Source: Bacteriovoracaceae bacterium
GTDB taxonomy: Bacteria > Bdellovibrionota > Bacteriovoracia > Bacteriovoracales > Bacteriovoracaceae
Reading direction: 5' to 3'
Assembly: GCA_028101965.1 (NCBI GenBank)
Contig: JAOHMI010000001.1
Span: 62,001-126,000, forward strand
DNA length: 64,000 bases
The position numbers and the translations under genes were made by a program. Of this stretch, positions 3,893-14,583 are shown in pieces (the first letter of the stretch is position 1; each line of letters opens with the position of its first letter). The notes beneath the pieces are model-generated. The model made no database searches. It had not been told where the DNA came from and saw nothing but the letters and a program-made list of their open reading frames with translations.

Positions 3893-6800
3893 CTACTGAC
3901 AAGACTCACCAAAAAAATCACCTGTTCCTGGATCTCCTCCTTGATCACAGAAGATGTTTATTTCTGAGTTCGTTCCAGTTAATACTTGAGTGCTTCCCGC
4001 AGCAAGAGATAAGTCCCAACCCATAGTATTTAATGTTTCTAGTGCACTAGTCGAATTAAACATATTATCCATATTTATAACGTTACTTGTGTCAAAGTGA
4101 GATAAATCTAAGGATGTAATCGAATTTGAATGTCTAAACATACTATACATAGACGTTACATTAGATGTATCAAAATTACTAATATTCAAAGAGGTGAGAG
4201 CATACATGGCTCCAAACATTGATGCCATTGTATCGACTTTTGAGGTATCAAAATGGGAAAGATCTAAACTAGGCAATGAAATAACGGCCATAAACATCCA
4301 ATCCATATGTGTCACATTTGATGTATTAAAACTTGATATATCCAAATAACTTAATTCGTGCATTGAGGAAAACATGCTCCCCATAGTAGTCACCTTACTG
4401 GTGTCGAAGTGTGATAAATCTAAACTAGTTAATGCTGTACTTGAAAACATTGAGCCCATTTTAGTAACTTTACTGGTATCAAAACTGGAAATATTTAAGC
4501 TGGTTAGTGCATCCATCCCTGAAAACATACCTTGCATGGAAGTTACTTGGGAAGTGTCAAAGTGTGATAAGTCTAAGGATGTGATTTTTTCTAATCTACT
4601 AAAAAGGCTGGACATTGTAGTAACATTACTCGTGTTAAAGCTGGATACATCTAAGTAAGTTAGATTTTCTAAATTATCTAACATGGCTATCATTGAAGTT
4701 ACATTGCTGGTATCAAAGTGAGATAAGTCTAAGGTTGTGAGTTTTTTTAGATTACCAAACATAATATCCATTTTGGTGACAGAACTTGTGTCGAATGAGG
4801 ATATATCAAGAAAAGTTATTTCTTCACAACCATAGAACATCCAACTCATATAAGTCACATTTGAAGTGTTAAAGCTTGAAAGATCCAGACTTGTTAGAGA
4901 GACAGCATTTTCAAACATGCCACCCATGGAGGTAACATTTGATGTGTCAAATGATGAAAGGTCAATATTTTCTAAGGATATTGCTAACTCAAACATTCTG
5001 CTCATAGACGTCACTTCGCTGGTATCAGTAATACCTGCAGTAAAGTCGGTTAAATTTTGCGCTCCTTTAAAAGAGTGTTTTAAATCAGTCCATCCAACTG
5101 TTCCTAGATTGACCACTTCTATTAGTTTGTTTCGATCATCATGGTTATATAAATAAATCGTTTGGAATAATCCGCTAATTGTAATTGTATATTGACCTGG
5201 GTTCGTAAAAGTATGAACCTTATCAGGGTCAGATGAACTTGTGACTGTTCCTACTGGCGATCCATCTCCCCAGTCAACTGTGAAATTATAACTGTATCCT
5301 GCTTTTAGAGGGAGTTCGATGTCTTCATTACTGGAAGTTGTTTGCCAGATTGATATAAAATCACTTGAATTTGCCTCAATGGTAAAACTGCTTGAGGCTG
5401 TGTTTGAGGTTTCACCATTTGCTGTAACAGTATAATTAAAACTCGCCGATCCTGAGTATCCAGGGCTTCCTGTTACTCCAGCGGTACAAACTCCTGAACC
5501 ATTGCAACTACAACTGGTTGTTTCACTTACGTTAATTAGTCCTGATAATGAACATGTCGTGGCCAAATCAATTTCCGGATCAGAGTAACTTAAGGTAATG
5601 ATACTTTCAGTATCTTGGTTAAAGCTCGATGGTGTTATATTGTTTGATACAGGTGGATCATCTACACTGCTAACTGTGATACTTGCACTGGCTGGCGGAG
5701 AAGTTTCTCCATTTGCCGTAACAGTATAATCAAAATCTGCATTTCCATTGTAATTAGAATTCCCTGTTACTCCAACTGTACAAACACCACTACTACAAGC
5801 ACAAGAAGTGGTTACACTGAGATTATTTTCATTACTTATATTACATGAACTAGCTGGATCATTTTCAGGATCACTATATGATAATGTGACTATGGTTTCT
5901 TCATCTTCATTTACTGCTGGCGGGCTAATTGGATCTGACATTGGTGGATCATCCACGCTGCTAACTGTGATACTTGCACTGGCAGCCGGAGATGTTTCAC
6001 CGTTTGCAGTCACTGTATAATCGAAATTGGCAACTCCATTATAATTTGAATCCCCGGTAACTCCAACTGTACAAATACCACTACTACAATCACATGCCGT
6101 ACTAACACTTAAGTTATTTTCTCCGCTAATGGTACAAGAGTTAGCGGGATCATTTTCTGGATCACTGTATGATAGTGTAACTATCGTTTCTTCATCTTCA
6201 TTGACAGCAGGAGGTGATATTGGATCCGACACTGGTGGATCGTCGACACTACTAACAGTGATACTTGCACTGGCAGAAGATGATGTTTCACCATTGCTGG
6301 TTACCGTATAATTAAAGGTTGCATTACCATTATAATTGTTATCGCCAGTAACACCAACTGTACAGATTCCACTGGCACAAGCGCAAGAGGTGGTTACACT
6401 AAGATTACTTTCTCCGCTAATAGCACATGATGTGGCAGGATCATTTTCTGGATCGCTGTATGAGAGAGTAACTATCGTTTCTTCATCTTCATTGACGGCC
6501 GGAGGTGCGATTGGGTCACTCACCGGAGGATCATCAACACTACTTATATTTAATGTTGCAGAACCAGTATTAGAATTTGATCCATTTGTATTAACTTGAT
6601 AGTCAAAACTTCCAACCCCATTATAGTTTGATATTCCAGTTACGCCCACCGTACAAACACCAGAACCATCACACGCACATGGTTGGCTAATCGAAATTTG
6701 ACTAAGGTTAGTGACAGAGCATGATGCTCCTAGGTCCCCATCGGGATCTGAATAATCGAGAGTAATAATACTTTGACTATCCTCCGCTAAATTTGGTGGA

Positions 6801-8098
6801 GTGAAGTCATTGGCAACAGGAGGATCAGGAGTGTTGGTTATATCAAGATTAATCGTACTTGGAGCAGAAGTTTCACCGCCAGCAGTAATGGTGTAGTTTA
6901 ATCCACCTGTCCCACTAAAATTTAATTGGCCAGTAACTCCTACGGTACAAACGCCAGCTCCATCACAACTACATGGAGTTGAAACAAATACTTGAACTAG
7001 GTTATCTACCTGACAGCTTGTAGCTAAGTCTCCCTCTGGATCATCATAGGCAAGGGTTAGAATATTTTCACTTTCCTCTGCAAATGAAGGGTTTGATGCT
7101 GGGGGAACTGGAGTTGGAGCATCATCAATCGAATTTATCGCTAAATTTACTGAACCGATGTCTGAGTCTTCTCCATTAGCATTTACAGTATAGTCAAAAG
7201 AACCATTTCCATTATAATTTGAATCCCCTGTTACTCCAACCGTACATAGACCACTGTTACAAGAACAGGCCGTCGAAACCATAAGGTTTGATAGATTTGA
7301 GATATTACAAGAAGTGGCTGGATTAGACTCATTATCTGTGTAGTTTAGAGTAATAATACTTTCAGAATCTTCGTTGACCGCACTTGGGTTTGTAGCAACA
7401 ACAACCGGTGGGTCATCAATTTGTTGAACATTAAGGCTTGCAGTTGCAGTATTTGTGACTGTGCCTTGATCGGTTTCAATGGAATAATCAAATGAGGCGG
7501 GGCCGGAGTAATTTCCAGGTGCAGTAACCCCAACTTGGCAATACCCAATACCACAAGAACATGGAGTCGTTATATTTAAATGATTGAGGTTTGATATAGA
7601 GCAATTTTCAGGAATCTCTTCTCCATTTCCTGCATAGCTAAGAGTAATTATATTTTCAGCTCCATCGTTAAGAGGCATTGCCGAGTTAATATCCATACTT
7701 GTGGGTTGTTCACTCTCTTCACTACCCAATTCTAATTCAATATTCGCATCAGGTGTGGCTACTTTTTTTTCAGATATTATTTTATAATCGAAATTACCTA
7801 GTCCTTCGTATCCAAAATCACCAGTGATTCCAACAACACAGACATTGATACTACAAGTGCAAGCTGTAGTTACTGATAAATTTACTTCATTCATTATTTC
7901 ACAAGACTTTGCAGGATCGTTCTGATCTCCATTATAATTTAATGTTACAAATCTTTCTTTTGGTATATGCTTTGTTTCTTGTTTTTGTGGTTTGTTAGAA
8001 TTTAACACATTCTGTGCAGAACCTTTGCGCTTCTTCTTCTTTTTAACAGTACTGACTCTAGGTCCACAAGCGCTTAACAATAGAAGGGACAATAGCAT
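3893..8098 (-). CDS. Large repeat lipoprotein: nine Cys-rich beta repeats, PKD-like segment, C-terminal DUF285/BspA-like repeats
   Basis: Lipobox LLLLSACG; nine units ending C.C....C.VGVTG...Y.G...F.YTV; FTVDWGDGSPVG..HTFTNPGQYTITISG PKD-like; about 12 copies of L(T/S)xLDLSxFDTSxVTxMxxMF. Confidence 0.9.
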   Translation of the reverse strand: MLLSLLLLSACGPRVSTVKKKKKRKGSAQNVLNSNKPQKQETKHIPKERFVTLNYNGDQNDPAKSCEIMNEVNLSVTTACTCSINVCVVGITGDFGYEGLGNFDYKIISEKKVATPDANIELELGSEESEQPTSMDINSAMPLNDGAENIITLSYAGNGEEIPENCSISNLNHLNITTPCSCGIGYCQVGVTAPGNYSGPASFDYSIETDQGTVTNTATASLNVQQIDDPPVVVATNPSAVNEDSESIITLNYTDNESNPATSCNISNLSNLMVSTACSCNSGLCTVGVTGDSNYNGNGSFDYTVNANGEDSDIGSVNLAINSIDDAPTPVPPASNPSFAEESENILTLAYDDPEGDLATSCQVDNLVQVFVSTPCSCDGAGVCTVGVTGQLNFSGTGGLNYTITAGGETSAPSTINLDITNTPDPPVANDFTPPNLAEDSQSIITLDYSDPDGDLGASCSVTNLSQISISQPCACDGSGVCTVGVTGISNYNGVGSFDYQVNTNGSNSNTGSATLNISSVDDPPVSDPIAPPAVNEDEETIVTLSYSDPENDPATSCAISGESNLSVTTSCACASGICTVGVTGDNNYNGNATFNYTVTSNGETSSSASASITVSSVDDPPVSDPISPPAVNEDEETIVTLSYSDPENDPANSCTISGENNLSVSTACDCSSGICTVGVTGDSNYNGVANFDYTVTANGETSPAASASITVSSVDDPPMSDPISPPAVNEDEETIVTLSYSDPENDPASSCNISNENNLSVTTSCACSSGVCTVGVTGNSNYNGNADFDYTVTANGETSPPASASITVSSVDDPPVSNNITPSSFNQDTESIITLSYSDPEIDLATTCSLSGLINVSETTSCSCNGSGVCTAGVTGSPGYSGSASFNYTVTANGETSNTASSSFTIEANSSDFISIWQTTSSNEDIELPLKAGYSYNFTVDWGDGSPVGTVTSSSDPDKVHTFTNPGQYTITISGLFQTIYLYNHDDRNKLIEVVNLGTVGWTDLKHSFKGAQNLTDFTAGITDTSEVTSMSRMFELAISLENIDLSSFDTSNVTSMGGMFENAVSLTSLDLSSFNTSNVTYMSWMFYGCEEITFLDISSFDTSSVTKMDIMFGNLKKLTTLDLSHFDTSNVTSMIAMLDNLENLTYLDVSSFNTSNVTTMSSLFSRLEKITSLDLSHFDTSQVTSMQGMFSGMDALTSLNISSFDTSKVTKMGSMFSSTALTSLDLSHFDTSKVTTMGSMFSSMHELSYLDISSFNTSNVTHMDWMFMAVISLPSLDLSHFDTSKVDTMASMFGAMYALTSLNISNFDTSNVTSMYSMFRHSNSITSLDLSHFDTSNVINMDNMFNSTSALETLNTMGWDLSLAAGSTQVLTGTNSEINIFCDQGGDPGTGDFFGESCQ

Positions 8099-8306
8099 AT
8101 AGCTTATTGTTTTTGAAAATGAAGTTTTGATACTTCTCTCCTCTGTCCCCTTACCTCTGACAGATAGATATAGTTTAATGTAAAAGATGAATGATTTTAG
8201 TTAATTTCAGTAACTCTAGCCGGTTATATCTCGGAAATTAAAGAATTTGTGCCAATAATAATTGCAAGAAAATGAATCATTCTGTGAGACGAAAGTAAGG
8301 AGCCTA

Positions 8307-9770
8307 TTATTTGAGGTTTAGAGTATCCTCGACCTTCTTTTGATATTGAAGAGTTAATTTTTTAATTTTTTTGTCTTTAACTAAGTTTGTTTCATTTGAT
8401 TGCATAATGGAGTTATATTTATTTTCATACCAATTAGATAATTCTTCTTCTTTTATTAAATAGTCTTCTTTCTTGCTCTCAATAGTTGGTTTTTTGAATT
8501 TATTTAGATTGTTATCTGAGTAATTATAATGATCTTTTCTTTCATTAATTTGAGGAAAAAAATGATTACTTATTTTTTTTATATTTTTTTCATATATTTT
8601 AACTAATTTTTGGATTGTTCGAGTTTTATATTTTACTTCAAGATTTAAATGCATAATTCTCTTGGCCTCGGCTTCATACCAGGTGGAGAGCTTACTAATT
8701 TCTTGTTCAAATGTTAGGTCGCTTCCCTCTGCTAGCTGAGGAGGGTTTTCAATATTATAAAAACTTGTATCTGCATTCTCACTTTCCTTAATTCTATTTT
8801 CTTGATTAGATTGTTTTTGATTATAGTTTGGATCTTTTTGAAAAGGTTCCTTTTCGCTTGGAAAAATATATTGATGATCAATTTGTGTTTTTTTTGTTTT
8901 CCCCCATTCCGCCATATAAGAAAAGCCGGGAAGGTCAAATACGACTCCTATGGCGAAGAGAATTGTAAATAAAAAATACACGCGTGGAATGATACAAAAA
9001 AAAGTAAAAGTGGAAGACTTTGCCATATAAAGTATAATTGAAGCAAAAATACTTCCGAGAGTTAAGTAGGGTAAAAAAATCAGAAGAAAATATAAGAAAC
9101 CATTATTCCAGTTAGGAATTAGATTTGCTTCATGCCCAATTAAAAATCCACTAAAAACTCCCAAAAAAGCCCAAATGACAATAAGAAAAATGTTTATGCC
9201 CACATGAACGGCCAAATTCATTATATGAAAAACTTCATCATCAACTTTGTTACCTTCAATGATTGGAGGAATTTCATTTTGATTGTACTGCTTAACTTGA
9301 AGATCAATTGTTTCTTTTTCGAGAGTATGAACGGCTTTTTGCAAATCATGATTAGAGTTGAATCGAATCACATAATAGTAAGGGTGATTATTGATTTTTA
9401 TACTTAATCGGGAAGGATCAATTTGTGATATTTGGTTTATTTCAGTATACGTTATTAATTCATTTTTAATGATATTTAATAATAATCCGTTTTCAAAAAT
9501 ATAAAATTTGGGATTCATACTGTTGTGGGTGGCGCCATGTACACTCCAGTCAGTATCCCGATTAATAAATGTATTAACTTTTAATTTTTGATGACACTTA
9601 TAAATAGACTTAGTTTCAATATGAAATAAAGAAGATGATAGATTTATATCTGATAGTTTAATGATGAATTTTTGCCCTGCCTTAAATATTGGATAAATTT
9701 TCTTGATGCTACTGGTCGCTAATAAAACCAGTGCAACTAAAAATATTATTAAAGGAAAGTATTCAACCAT
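8307..9770 (-). CDS. Hypothetical multi-TM protein with charged C-terminal coil
   Basis: ORF with several hydrophobic segments; C-terminal repeats of E(E/A)xxLSxWYExxxxxIM. Confidence 0.7.
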   Translation of the reverse strand: MVEYFPLIIFLVALVLLATSSIKKIYPIFKAGQKFIIKLSDINLSSSLFHIETKSIYKCHQKLKVNTFINRDTDWSVHGATHNSMNPKFYIFENGLLLNIIKNELITYTEINQISQIDPSRLSIKINNHPYYYVIRFNSNHDLQKAVHTLEKETIDLQVKQYNQNEIPPIIEGNKVDDEVFHIMNLAVHVGINIFLIVIWAFLGVFSGFLIGHEANLIPNWNNGFLYFLLIFLPYLTLGSIFASIILYMAKSSTFTFFCIIPRVYFLFTILFAIGVVFDLPGFSYMAEWGKTKKTQIDHQYIFPSEKEPFQKDPNYNQKQSNQENRIKESENADTSFYNIENPPQLAEGSDLTFEQEISKLSTWYEAEAKRIMHLNLEVKYKTRTIQKLVKIYEKNIKKISNHFFPQINERKDHYNYSDNNLNKFKKPTIESKKEDYLIKEEELSNWYENKYNSIMQSNETNLVKDKKIKKLTLQYQKKVEDTLNLK

Positions 9771-9774
9771 AAAG

Positions 9775-10101
9775 CTAGTTTTTGGAAAAAAACTTATCTC
9801 TTGAATCTTTAAGCTTTAGCTTTGGAGTTTCAACTTCAACCCGGCCTCTTTGAGTTGAAACCACATGACATGTGCTTCCTTTCGATCCGATCCAGGCCAT
9901 ATAATAAGCTTCAGACTTTCTATTTTTATCCACTGTAATATTGACAGGGATTGGGTTTTTAGGTGAGGGGGTTAGCTTGAAGCAAACTTCTGCTGTCATA
10001 TCCATATTATTTGAGCGGTCTAATCGGTACCAATTTAAAATTTTCATTTCATAGCTATAAGATAATTGGCTTAAAAGCATAAGTAGTGCGATATATTTCA
10101 T
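9775..10101 (-). CDS. Small secreted protein
   Basis: Signal peptide MKYIALLMLLSQLSYS; ORF track start 10119 has six extra residues. Confidence 0.65.
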   Translation of the reverse strand: MKYIALLMLLSQLSYSYEMKILNWYRLDRSNNMDMTAEVCFKLTPSPKNPIPVNITVDKNRKSEAYYMAWIGSKGSTCHVVSTQRGRVEVETPKLKLKDSRDKFFSKN

Positions 10102-10230
10102 TGTAAATCCTTTTATCAATTAATTTATTTAAGTTTAAACCAGTTGATAATCATTGTCGTTAATTAAATGCTCACAACCAAATACAGTTAAAGTTATTTA
10201 AATGAGTGGTGTTTTTAAATAGGATTGTCT

Positions 10231-12231
10231 TTAGTTTCTTCTAATGTAAATCTTAAATTGATGGAATTGATGTCTAAAGTTTTTCTGATCTTTGGAGTTG
10301 AAATCGAGTATCTTTCCAAATTCAATTTTAGTGTAAATATCTCCAAGGGAGAGAGAAATCTCACGTAAAACTTTGATGTCGATCGCACTATTTTTAGTGG
10401 GAAGAATTAAGGGGGGGGGAGCTAATTTATTTTCATAGTAAATTTTTTGAATGCTGGAAAAAAATACTTGGTATTTTTGTTTTGCTTCAGAAACAAATGA
10501 ATCAGTATTGGGGATTGCATTCAGGTCTTTTAAAATTTCTTTTTTTAGTTCGGGACTAATTTTAATTTTATCTTCATCTAGGTATTTTTTTTGTTTAAAT
10601 TTTTGAAAAAAGTAGAAAAAGGCAATTAGAGCAAAGATATAGGGAATCGAGTTAGCAATTTTTAGTAACATTTTTTTTATTTTTAATAGAATTCTGTCCA
10701 AAATGCTAATTTTTTGTTGTGAATTGATAGGCTTGGGAGGGTTATTTCTAGTATCTTCTCTAGCCCTCGTGTCGTTTCGGTCTTTTTCTTTTTCTGTGTT
10801 CCCTATGTCCTTCGTGCTACTTATCTTATTTGTATCCTTTATTTCTTTTTCTTTTTGGAGTTCTCGCACAATTTTGTTAAATTGTTTGTTAGTATTTTCA
10901 TGAATATCTTTAGAGTTTTTCATAAGTGAAGGATTTGAATTGTTTTTTTCATTTTTACTTTCAGATTTTAAAAATTTTTTTGCAAGAGATGCTTCTTGAA
11001 TTTGTTTAACTATGTTACGAAGGTTCCTTTGTTTTTTCTTTAGTTTACTTTGCATTGATTTAAGTTTTTCTTTTTGGACTTTATATTTCGTTACCGACTT
11101 GAAGTTTTTAAAAACCGTATCAGGTTTAATTTGCAAGTCATGACTCAATTGATTAATAGCATTACTAGATAAATCCATATCCATTTTTAAATTAGCCAAT
11201 TCTTGTTTTATTGAACCTGAATCTATGTTTTGATTTGATCTAATTTTTTTTTGCAATTCATTCATTCTATTTTGGTTTCGCTTTAAGGTACTATTTAAGC
11301 TACCAAGCTTGATATTGATATTTTTCATCCCTTTTAATTCCATAGATCTTAACAATTTAATGGATTCTTCACTTAGTAGATCTTTATTAATATCAGGGTC
11401 ATTACTTAAACTTATTTCAGATTTTTTATGTTCAGGAAAAGCTTTTATGAGGTAATCAAAAAAAGACTGATCTTTATTTTCTACAATTTTATCAATAAGT
11501 AGAAAAAGAGTTAGGAAGATGATGAAGCTAGGAAGAATTTTTTTGAATGAATGAACAATATTTAATTCAAAACTTAGGTTAAAGTTTTGAGAAAATTTTA
11601 ATTTTTGGATTAAGCTGAGGCCAATGAAAAAGAGGAGGATGATAGAAAAGACAATTAAATAAGAGAATAGGTTATTGCTACTGCTTAATATACAGGTGTA
11701 AATGAGTATATAATACAAATTAAAAATTAAAATATTCCAAACAGGGAATGCATAAAAAGTTACAATTAATGGTAGTACAACGGCGCTTGTTAAAATTACT
11801 GAATTAATATCATTTTGAGATATGAAATTAGAAATGAGAGGAAAAATCAAAATAATCAAAAAGATTGGTATAACCTTCCTTGCCAATCTTAACTCATGGA
11901 TTAAACCTTTAACATGCTCAATTTGATTTTCTTTATCTTTAGAGTTGTATTTAAAGCCTATTCCTGCGATATTTAAGTTGTTCTTGTCTTCTTCAAATAT
12001 ATCTTCATTTAACAAAAACTTTGGTTTCTCAATTGGGTTGGTTAGTTTTAGATCCTTCGTGATAATTCCGCTTGCTCTGATTACTAGAGGAATGAAGATC
12101 AAATTAAAAAGAGCCAATCGCGTATTACCATTCGGAAAAGATTTAAAGAAGAAATAGAAAAAGAGAAGATTGAAAATTATTAAAAAAAAGGCAATTTCTT
12201 CAATCTTAAATTTTTTATTTTCTACTTTCAA
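10231..12231 (-). CDS. Membrane protein, TgpA-like architecture (N-terminal TM bundle, coiled coil, single TM, cytoplasmic tail), third gene of moxR-DUF58 cluster
   Basis: Multiple N-terminal hydrophobic helices, long charged coil, TM SIPYIFALIAFFYFFQKF; overlaps the 3' end of the DUF58 gene by 17 nt. Confidence 0.65.
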   Translation of the reverse strand: MKVENKKFKIEEIAFFLIIFNLLFFYFFFKSFPNGNTRLALFNLIFIPLVIRASGIITKDLKLTNPIEKPKFLLNEDIFEEDKNNLNIAGIGFKYNSKDKENQIEHVKGLIHELRLARKVIPIFLIILIFPLISNFISQNDINSVILTSAVVLPLIVTFYAFPVWNILIFNLYYILIYTCILSSSNNLFSYLIVFSIILLFFIGLSLIQKLKFSQNFNLSFELNIVHSFKKILPSFIIFLTLFLLIDKIVENKDQSFFDYLIKAFPEHKKSEISLSNDPDINKDLLSEESIKLLRSMELKGMKNINIKLGSLNSTLKRNQNRMNELQKKIRSNQNIDSGSIKQELANLKMDMDLSSNAINQLSHDLQIKPDTVFKNFKSVTKYKVQKEKLKSMQSKLKKKQRNLRNIVKQIQEASLAKKFLKSESKNEKNNSNPSLMKNSKDIHENTNKQFNKIVRELQKEKEIKDTNKISSTKDIGNTEKEKDRNDTRAREDTRNNPPKPINSQQKISILDRILLKIKKMLLKIANSIPYIFALIAFFYFFQKFKQKKYLDEDKIKISPELKKEILKDLNAIPNTDSFVSEAKQKYQVFFSSIQKIYYENKLAPPPLILPTKNSAIDIKVLREISLSLGDIYTKIEFGKILDFNSKDQKNFRHQFHQFKIYIRRN

Positions 12232-13630
12232 CGGTAAACCCCTGGTTTATTGTTGTTTTATAATCGGTTCTTAAATCTAGTTTTATAAGAGATAGATCGA
12301 TCCCATTTGAATTACAAAACTTCTTTAGATGAGGGATATAGTTTTTAACATTTGTTGAGAGTTGAAGTAAGGCTACTCTCTCTTTTTCATCAGCAAAAAG
12401 AAATAAGTCTTTGAAACCATAAACACAAATTAAATGAATTCTTGCAACTCTCTTTTTTAATGAAACGAGAAGTTTTAAATAATTTTCAAAATTTTTACCA
12501 GGAACTAAACCTGTAAAAACAAAAAGGTTTGTACTTAAATCAACATAGTGAAAGATCTTTCTTTCTAGCTTCTTTAATTCATTAGGGAGTACTCTCTCCC
12601 TTCGTTTAGACACTATTTTGGGAAATACTAAAGGAGACATTTTTGTTATGAGGTACTCAAGATAAAAAAGATGGTTTAAAGAATTTTTCGCACCTATAAT
12701 CCTTTGATGAGATGTAAATCCAATATCATTGTTAGTTTTAATTTGTGTGTGAAAAAGTGATAAAATTAAATCTTTGCAATACTCAAATGAGCTAAATTCA
12801 CCAAAGCCAAAGTGCATTCGATCATCATCAACGAGCACTGCCATAGTTTTTGCATTTGTATTGTTCTCAAATACATTCACGATGGTTTTGTGTGTTTTAA
12901 GACTTAATTTCCAGTTTATAAATTTTACTGGGTCACCGACTTGATACTCTTTGGTTGAGTAGAAGTTTGAGGAGTATCCTTTTTGTATGCTATCAAAACT
13001 CCCATAGGACATACTTCGGTCATTGCGTATTAATTTAGGAGAGTGTGTGGGCATAACTTTTGGGAAAATTCTAATTATTTTTATCTCGGAGAAAATAAAC
13101 TCGTATTGAGATAAGCCAAGTGAATCAATAAAATATCCACAAATGGGGCCGATTTCTTTATCCCCCATACCGTTGTTAATGAGCATATTATAAGTCCGCT
13201 TATTTATTGAATGGGGCATAAATGAATCGATATAAAAGCTATGATCTATGTTCCAATCTTTATTTTTTGAGCATTCAAGTGTGTCAAAAATGACCATGGA
13301 GTCAACAACACTACCGGTTAAGTTTTTTATTTTATAGGTCAGCTCCTCTTTATTTCCTTCTTTACTTTTTTTTGTCAGTTCTCTTTTTATGAAAAAACTT
13401 TGTGCAAATTTTTGACTGGTTAATTTCGAATACCAATAGATGACAATGAAGGGAATAAAGAATTTTAAATAGTGATAATCAAGGAGACTCTTGAAAGCCA
13501 GAATTATGAGTATTGTTTTAAAGAATAGAGGCGAATCTAATAGTTTAAGGTTGTTGAAGAAAAAATGTTTTAAAGGAAAAAGTTTTAAATTTCGAAATAG
13601 ATAATTTTTAAGCTGAGTTTCTTTTGACAT
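12215..13630 (-). CDS. DUF58 domain protein
   Basis: Signature STKEYQVGDPVKFINWKLSLKTHKTIVNVFENN plus two N-terminal hydrophobic segments; adjacent to moxR. Confidence 0.85.
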   Translation of the reverse strand: MSKETQLKNYLFRNLKLFPLKHFFFNNLKLLDSPLFFKTILIILAFKSLLDYHYLKFFIPFIVIYWYSKLTSQKFAQSFFIKRELTKKSKEGNKEELTYKIKNLTGSVVDSMVIFDTLECSKNKDWNIDHSFYIDSFMPHSINKRTYNMLINNGMGDKEIGPICGYFIDSLGLSQYEFIFSEIKIIRIFPKVMPTHSPKLIRNDRSMSYGSFDSIQKGYSSNFYSTKEYQVGDPVKFINWKLSLKTHKTIVNVFENNTNAKTMAVLVDDDRMHFGFGEFSSFEYCKDLILSLFHTQIKTNNDIGFTSHQRIIGAKNSLNHLFYLEYLITKMSPLVFPKIVSKRRERVLPNELKKLERKIFHYVDLSTNLFVFTGLVPGKNFENYLKLLVSLKKRVARIHLICVYGFKDLFLFADEKERVALLQLSTNVKNYIPHLKKFCNSNGIDLSLIKLDLRTDYKTTINQGFTVESRK

Positions 13631-13632
13631 TA

Positions 13633-14583
13633 TTATTTGTAATCTAATTTTGGAGAGGGAACTGAATGAAGTATTTCTTCGATGATCTTATCTGGAGAGT
13701 GTCCATCAAAGAGTGCATCTTCTGTTAAGCTAATCCGGTGGCACATAACTGGTTTGGCTAATTTAAAAACATCAGATGGGATGACATAATTACGATTTTG
13801 AACTAATGAGTAACCTTGAGCCAATTTTGTAAAAGCAAGTGATGCCCTGGGAGAGATTCCATGTTTTAAGTTGGGGTGATTTCGAGAAGCTTCAGCGATA
13901 TTAACAATGTACTCCAAGACAGATGGATCTATGGCAATGGATTTAGCTTGATTCCTTAATTGAATTAAATCTCCACCTTCTACCACAGGAATAACTTTAG
14001 CTAATGGGTTATTATGTATCTGGTCTTTAATCATTTTAATCTCAAGTTCATTTGATAAGAAACCTAATGAAATTTTGATCATAAATCGATCCAGTTGAGC
14101 TTCGGGTAAAGGGAAAGTTCCCTGCTGTTCAATTGGGTTTTGAGTTGCCACGACAAAAAAGTTATCTGAAAGTTTTGTTGTGTGGTTTTCGATTGTAATT
14201 TGATTTTCGGCCATGGACTCTAAGAGTGCGGATTGAGTTCGAGGCGTGGCGCGATTTATCTCATCAGCTAAGAAGAAATCTGTGAATAGAGGGCCTCGGC
14301 GAAAGTAGAACTTCTTTTTTTCTTGATCGTAAATTGTATTTCCTAAAATATCACTTGGGAGGAGGTCTGGAGTAAACTGAGCTCTCGTAAATTTAACGTG
14401 ACAAGCTTGGGATAGAGCTTTAGCTAGCATCGTCTTTCCTGTTCCTGGAAGATCTTCTAGAAGAACGTGTCCTCCAACAATCCAAGTAGCTAGTATTATT
14501 TTAATTTCTTCATTTTTACCAAGAATAACTTTATTTGCTTCATTTAAAATAGATTCAATCTTTCCAGTTGCGGAGCTGTTCAT
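13633..14583 (-). CDS. moxR: MoxR family AAA+ ATPase
   Basis: GHVLLEDLPGTGKTMLAKAL, ADEINRATPRTQSALLESMAE, VVATQNPIEQQGTFPLPEAQLDRF. Confidence 0.95.
   Translation of the reverse strand: MNSSATGKIESILNEANKVILGKNEEIKIILATWIVGGHVLLEDLPGTGKTMLAKALSQACHVKFTRAQFTPDLLPSDILGNTIYDQEKKKFYFRRGPLFTDFFLADEINRATPRTQSALLESMAENQITIENHTTKLSDNFFVVATQNPIEQQGTFPLPEAQLDRFMIKISLGFLSNELEIKMIKDQIHNNPLAKVIPVVEGGDLIQLRNQAKSIAIDPSVLEYIVNIAEASRNHPNLKHGISPRASLAFTKLAQGYSLVQNRNYVIPSDVFKLAKPVMCHRISLTEDALFDGHSPDKIIEEILHSVPSPKLDYK

Follow-up and report, generated by a model that had tools for sequence, protein, structure and literature searches.

A putative lipid-anchored rod of four-cysteine tandem-95 repeats with a leucine-rich-repeat-type tip in a Bacteriovoracaceae bacterium

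Proteins composed of DUF285/TIGR02167 repeats, also known as PARCEL repeat proteins and exemplified by LppQ and LppC of mycoplasmas, were described by Roske et al. 2010, and owe this name to the palindromic character of their coding DNA (PMC2996958). Among related lipoproteins, the DUF285 protein MbovP0145 of Mycoplasma bovis has been reported to bind beta-actin, and BspA to bind fibronectin and fibrinogen (PMC8707762). Tandem-95 proteins (NF012211) are built from another repeat, which corresponds to the Cadherin_5 (PF17892) and Big_9 (PF17963) families. Surface fibres with modular, exchangeable tips, the mosaic adhesive trimer (MAT) fibres, have been described for the predatory bacterium Bdellovibrio bacteriovorus (PMC10769870), and cell recognition by Bacteriovorax-type predators is poorly understood. 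Here we report the analysis of a lipoprotein gene from a relative of predatory Bacteriovorax, a Bacteriovoracaceae bacterium (assembly GCA_028101965.1), within a window of 64,000 nucleotides (contig JAOHMI010000001.1, positions 62,001 to 126,000), whose product appears to combine a tandem-95 stalk with a DUF285 tip.

The stalk repeats share with tandem-95 proteins the domain length, the DDPP...NED linker and the NYNG..FDYTV core, but each of them additionally carries four invariant cysteines. The tail resembles PARCEL proteins in its repeat length of 25-26 residues, lipoprotein context and variable hydrophilic positions, and differs from them in that its DNA lacks excess dyad symmetry and that it is mounted on a long immunoglobulin (Ig)-like stalk, in a Gram-negative-type lineage absent from PMC2996958. 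With BspA-like proteins and MbovP0145 the product shares repeats of the leucine-rich repeat (LRR) type on an exported lipoprotein, whereas a cadherin-like stalk was not described there; the protein binding reported for these relatives may bear on the present tip by analogy only. MAT fibres are likewise surface fibres with modular tips from a related predatory lineage, but they consist of trimeric proteins, and we claim no homology. The lipobox and the monomer-like modules of the present protein would speak against a trimeric architecture. The Aureispira grappling hook protein GhpA (PDB 9g8b), a tandem Ig-like bacterial contact protein, was found among the fold matches with a TM-score of only 0.36 and 21% identity, which amounts to a general Ig-like resemblance. 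All modules of the protein appear to belong to known families, and what seems new is a four-cysteine variant of the tandem-95 repeat, found class-wide with interchangeable tips.

The gene is a single open reading frame (ORF) of 1401 residues on the minus strand (positions 3893-8098). Its lipobox, LLLLSAC, is of the kind expected of a bacterial lipoprotein, with an n-region probably supplied by an upstream start codon, and is separated by a lysine-rich linker from nine consecutive repeats of 97-100 residues each, which span residues 34-911. The pattern C-x13-C-x-C-x4/5-C is present in all nine repeats, with 36 of 36 cysteines kept in four invariant columns; since only 4 of the protein's 40 cysteines lie elsewhere, a chance pattern is ruled out. 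A preliminary description of this DNA had given exactly these coordinates, a lipobox and nine repeats with a conserved four-cysteine cluster, all of which we recovered, the lipobox cysteine being residue 11, while its repeat length of about 70-100 residues was slightly too low. Its view that the repeat is unusual also holds in that no dedicated family model exists for it. The whole protein scored 138.7 bits over 8 stretches against NF012211, above the curated cut-off of 90, and the repeats score as tandem-95, Cadherin_5 or Big_9. A single repeat reached only 31 bits and repeat 1 gave no score, so the four-cysteine repeat is a diverged tandem-95 variant that lacks its own model in the libraries searched; its cysteine set is clade-specific.

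AlphaFold modeling of repeats 6 and 7 yielded a cadherin/Ig-like beta-sandwich with a pLDDT of 96, and this two-repeat model resembles domains of cadherins, of titin (Ig type) and of bacterial adhesins in the fold search. At the DNA level, identity among repeats 6-8 is no more than 75-80%, and per 97 codons they differ by 34-39 synonymous versus 12-15 amino-acid changes, from which we infer an old array maintained by purifying selection; a recent repeat expansion or a phase-variable tract was therefore rejected. The literature search retrieved no paper joining 'tandem-95 repeat' with 'disulfide'.

Behind the stalk, the segment FTVDWGDGS...HTFTNPGQYTI leads into the tail. Its WGDG motif is conserved in relatives, and its likeness to PKD domains is limited to the WGDG and G.YT motifs, with a PKD_4 (PF18911) score of 15.5 bits, under the cut-off of 27. 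The tail itself matches Pfam DUF285 (PF03382) with 359.9 bits (E 2.8e-109, 6 stretches, gathering cut-off 25) and NCBIfam TIGR02167, the "PARCEL" repeat, with 325.9 bits (E 6.1e-100, 12 stretches, cut-off 30), and consists of 12 LRR-type units of 25-26 residues, 11 regular and a divergent first one. Its model is an LRR-like solenoid capped by the PKD-like beta domain (pLDDT 88, pTM 0.84). Its best matches in the PDB come from LRR receptors and from LRR proteins of bacteria, including Leptospira LIC10831 and Listeria InlJ, with TM-scores of just 0.15-0.26 over the query; because these are low, the tail resembles the LRR class and not any one structure. The DUF285 assignment and the count of about 12 units made earlier were thus borne out, as were the beta-sandwich and solenoid folds for which AlphaFold had been suggested as a check; the PKD-like motif was found as described, with a score that falls short of family membership. 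The overall stalk-plus-tip anatomy proposed there is supported by the family matches, the confident fold predictions and relatives that exchange tips. The host or prey contact suggested in the same place is a conjecture.

The layout of the modeled repeat suggests how the four cysteines pair. Strand 30-39 holds Cys33, strand 41-50 holds Cys47 and Cys49, and strand 53-60 holds Cys54, while hairpin turns near 40 and at 51-52 put residue 33 opposite 47 and 49 opposite 54. As these residues are placed face to face, the cysteines most likely form two cross-strand intradomain disulfides, Cys1-Cys2 and Cys3-Cys4, each of which would join a strand to its antiparallel neighbour. An earlier test of the loss pattern was uninformative, since the cysteine-containing profile used in it returned nearly only four-cysteine matches; a profile with every cysteine masked was therefore run over all fetched loci. 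It gave 142 unique near-full-length domains, 129 with four cysteines, 13 with two and none with an odd number. In one two-cysteine class, Cys3 and Cys4 are the sole positions retained, and this argues that the pair is a unit. Three loci (L046, L048, L045) contain long ORFs of 1143 to 3740 residues with two-cysteine tandem-95 domains (LSCTGG..S.xCT), apparently a second cysteine variant of the domain. Two DSBA-family genes in the source genome fit an oxidised exported protein, and were taken as the sign of oxidative folding because DsbB is patchy among the relatives.

The four-cysteine repeat is widespread in the class, which is here a single family: the repeat profile matched 86 of its 129 genomes, as against 15 of the 240 genomes from elsewhere in the phylum, and other phyla were covered by the close-relative scan only. 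When named genomes were scanned with five close repeats as a query, the wider repeat alignment being too divergent, matches came from Halobacteriovoraceae, Bacteriovoracaceae and one Bdellovibrionaceae genome. In most relatives, the repeat follows soon after the lipobox, and the C-terminal modules behind it vary between DUF285 LRR arrays, laminin-G/lectin domains and RCC1 propellers. The four-cysteine stalk module is spread class-wide and joined to many different tips. One relative (L115) has a lipobox, one four-cysteine repeat and other domains, and its tail can be aligned with the present one across 490 residues, nearly gap-free and with 51% identity; by this alignment it is the same tip on a different stalk. 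The last C-terminal residues are also kept there (SCDQGGTPGTGSLFGEVCN). The metagenome-assembled genome SAT180 (G009, L098) encodes at least 14 proteins with a lipobox, one four-cysteine repeat, WGDG and DUF285, in which the LRR core residues are kept and non-core positions vary. These paralogues lie at loci L067, L068, L152, L153, L154 and L155 of this genome, several in tandem clusters, consistent with a large surface-type gene family. A second DUF285 lipoprotein of the source genome (L010, 2592-4199, minus strand) has a lipobox, a WGDG segment and a DUF285 array without the four-cysteine stalk.

We propose, with a probability of roughly 0.6, that the gene encodes an outer-membrane lipoprotein in which a rigid, disulfide-stapled rod presents an LRR binding tip. 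A lipid on Cys11 would anchor the protein in the outer membrane, and nine cadherin/Ig-like domains, each stapled by two intradomain disulfides, would form a rod which, by analogy with cadherin repeats, may be about 35-40 nm long. The PKD-like domain would lead from this rod into the solenoid, the part that would engage an extracellular ligand, conceivably on prey, a particle or a sister cell. Because relatives carry this stalk module joined to other tips, related bacteria may share a rod with exchangeable ligand-binding ends. Several points weigh against this proposal. The pairing was read from the strand layout of the model rather than from sulfur-sulfur distances; the loci behind the even cysteine counts had originally been found with a cysteine-containing profile; and another two-cysteine class, whose loops differ in length and whose two cysteines lie close to where Cys1 and Cys4 would be, does not agree with simple neighbour-strand pairing. 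DsbB was not found in the source genome, which is 67% complete (2.78 Mb). Surface exposure is suggested by the lipobox and by analogy with DUF285/BspA proteins, but a lipobox does not prove exposure, and the protein could face the periplasm. Finally, the gene stands alone behind a MoxR/DUF58 cluster, where nothing ties it to predation.

That the protein is instead purely structural, a periplasmic spacer or a component of the cell-surface coat with no specific ligand, seems unlikely to us. The lipobox alone would leave open which side of the outer membrane it faces, and some relatives (L110) consist solely of four-cysteine and cadherin-like domains and show no obvious tip; however, in many others the stalk bears a fold known for ligand binding (LRR, laminin-G/lectin or RCC1), and the tip units vary at non-core positions. 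It is more improbable that we are dealing with a self-adhesin or biofilm protein, whose tips or stalks bind each other on sister cells and not prey or a host. Cadherin-like stalks and LRR tips are capable of homotypic binding, cadherins are among the fold matches, and a predatory habit cannot be taken as given for this lineage; against this, nothing points specifically to homotypic binding, and a family of variable-tip paralogues in one genome better fits varied ligands. We consider it very improbable that the four cysteines of each repeat, two of them in a C-x-C arrangement, form a zinc or iron site in place of disulfides, as the protein is exported, cysteine counts are always even, variants with only the Cys3 and Cys4 positions occur, the model puts the cysteines in adjacent beta strands, and DSBA genes are present. 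Least credible is the view that the tail is chiefly a recently inserted mobile palindromic coding element and its combination with the stalk a by-product of mobility: it would explain the TIGR02167/PARCEL match, the punctate distribution of DUF285, present in 40 of 129 genomes of the class, and its occurrence behind differing N-terminal parts, but it is weakened by the lack of surplus inverted repeats in the tail DNA, whose inverted k-mer counts (k = 7 to 12) equal those of 500 synonymous shuffles, and by the near-gapless alignment with the relative, a sign that the module is old and has been maintained.

For the same lack of excess over synonymous shuffles, the tail was rejected as palindromic PARCEL DNA. 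A mobile origin of the stalk was also rejected, as the stalk repeat, the part of the protein covered by this search, had no match in the plasmid and viral collections.

Beyond the single gene, one may speculate, tentatively and with more doubt than confidence, that the Bacteriovoracia own a modular contact-fibre system of lipid-anchored, disulfide-stapled tandem-95 rods with exchangeable LRR, lectin or propeller tips recognising prey or surfaces, a counterpart of the MAT fibres that in some species has expanded into tandem gene families. The class-wide stalk module and its exchangeable tips provide a defined gene set for knockout and expression, and the even-cysteine pattern sets apart, within a repeat that is very common in bacteria, a putatively disulfide-stapled subfamily which current family libraries do not separate. 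No paper combining 'Bacteriovorax' with LRR and lipoprotein was found in the literature search.

The coordinates of all features are collected in Table 1. The true gene start is probably the upstream ATC codon listed there, because no ATG, GTG, TTG or CTG occurs from the upstream in-frame stop down to the ATG at 8098, the GAGGAG stands six bases ahead of it, and the same layout recurs in a paralogue; a start at this ATG would leave a signal segment of just ten residues. The truncated paralogue, at locus L066 of the same genome, has an identical GAGGAG-6 nt-ATC-AAA arrangement, and its sole downstream ATG is too short to give a signal peptide, which suggests that the ATC start is common to both genes and conserved.

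Table 1. Predicted features of the lipoprotein gene (window positions)
Feature	Position	Strand	Remarks
Shine-Dalgarno-like GAGGAG	8138..8143	-	sequence; 6-nt spacer to ATC, next codon AAA
Probable ATC start codon, yielding lipoprotein signal peptide IKTSFSKTISYMLLSLLLLSAC	8129..8131	-	inferred from layout
Hydrophobic stretch of the signal with lipobox LSA-C at its end (Cys11, then Gly)	8066..8098	-	sequence; lipobox-first in most relatives
Linker and four-Cys repeat 1 (residues 34-133)	7700..7999	-	
Four-Cys repeat 2 (residues 134-231)	7406..7699	-	
Four-Cys repeat 3 (residues 232-329)	7112..7405	-	
Four-Cys repeat 4 (residues 330-427)	6818..7111	-	
Four-Cys repeat 5 (residues 428-525)	6524..6817	-	
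Four-Cys repeat 6 (residues 526-622)	6233..6523	-	included in AlphaFold model
Four-Cys repeat 7 (residues 623-719)	5942..6232	-	included in AlphaFold model
Four-Cys repeat 8 (residues 720-816)	5651..5941	-	
Four-Cys repeat 9 (residues 817-911)	5366..5650	-	
PKD-like beta domain with capping segment, preceding the solenoid (residues 912-1003)	5090..5365	-	motif, model strands
DUF285/TIGR02167 LRR-type solenoid, 12 units of ~26 residues (residues 1004-1357)	4028..5089	-	family matches, model
C-terminal segment with Cys1384 and Cys1400 (FCDQGGDPGTGDFFGESCQ), low model confidence	3896..4027	-	

In the window, the gene follows, on the same strand, a cluster encoding a MoxR ATPase, a DUF58 protein and membrane proteins (8307-14583, minus strand). 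The neighbours having a Pfam match (MoxR ATPase, DUF58) are chromosomal, and no neighbour is held in common with the relatives' loci that were compared. A search for LolA was positive for 10 of 12 relatives and negative for the incomplete source genome.

The L066 paralogue (4620-5000, minus strand; 127 residues) has the same N-terminus as the window protein (ACGPNVSTVKK...RFVTLNYNG...), matches it as far as the last of the four cysteines in repeat 1, and diverges thereafter; it may be a pseudogene, a recombination remnant or an assembly artefact. At the same locus, a minus-strand frame of 331 residues repeats the tripeptide FAG about six times (FAGFAGFAGFAGFAGFA), and this may reflect a short tandem DNA repeat able to slip.

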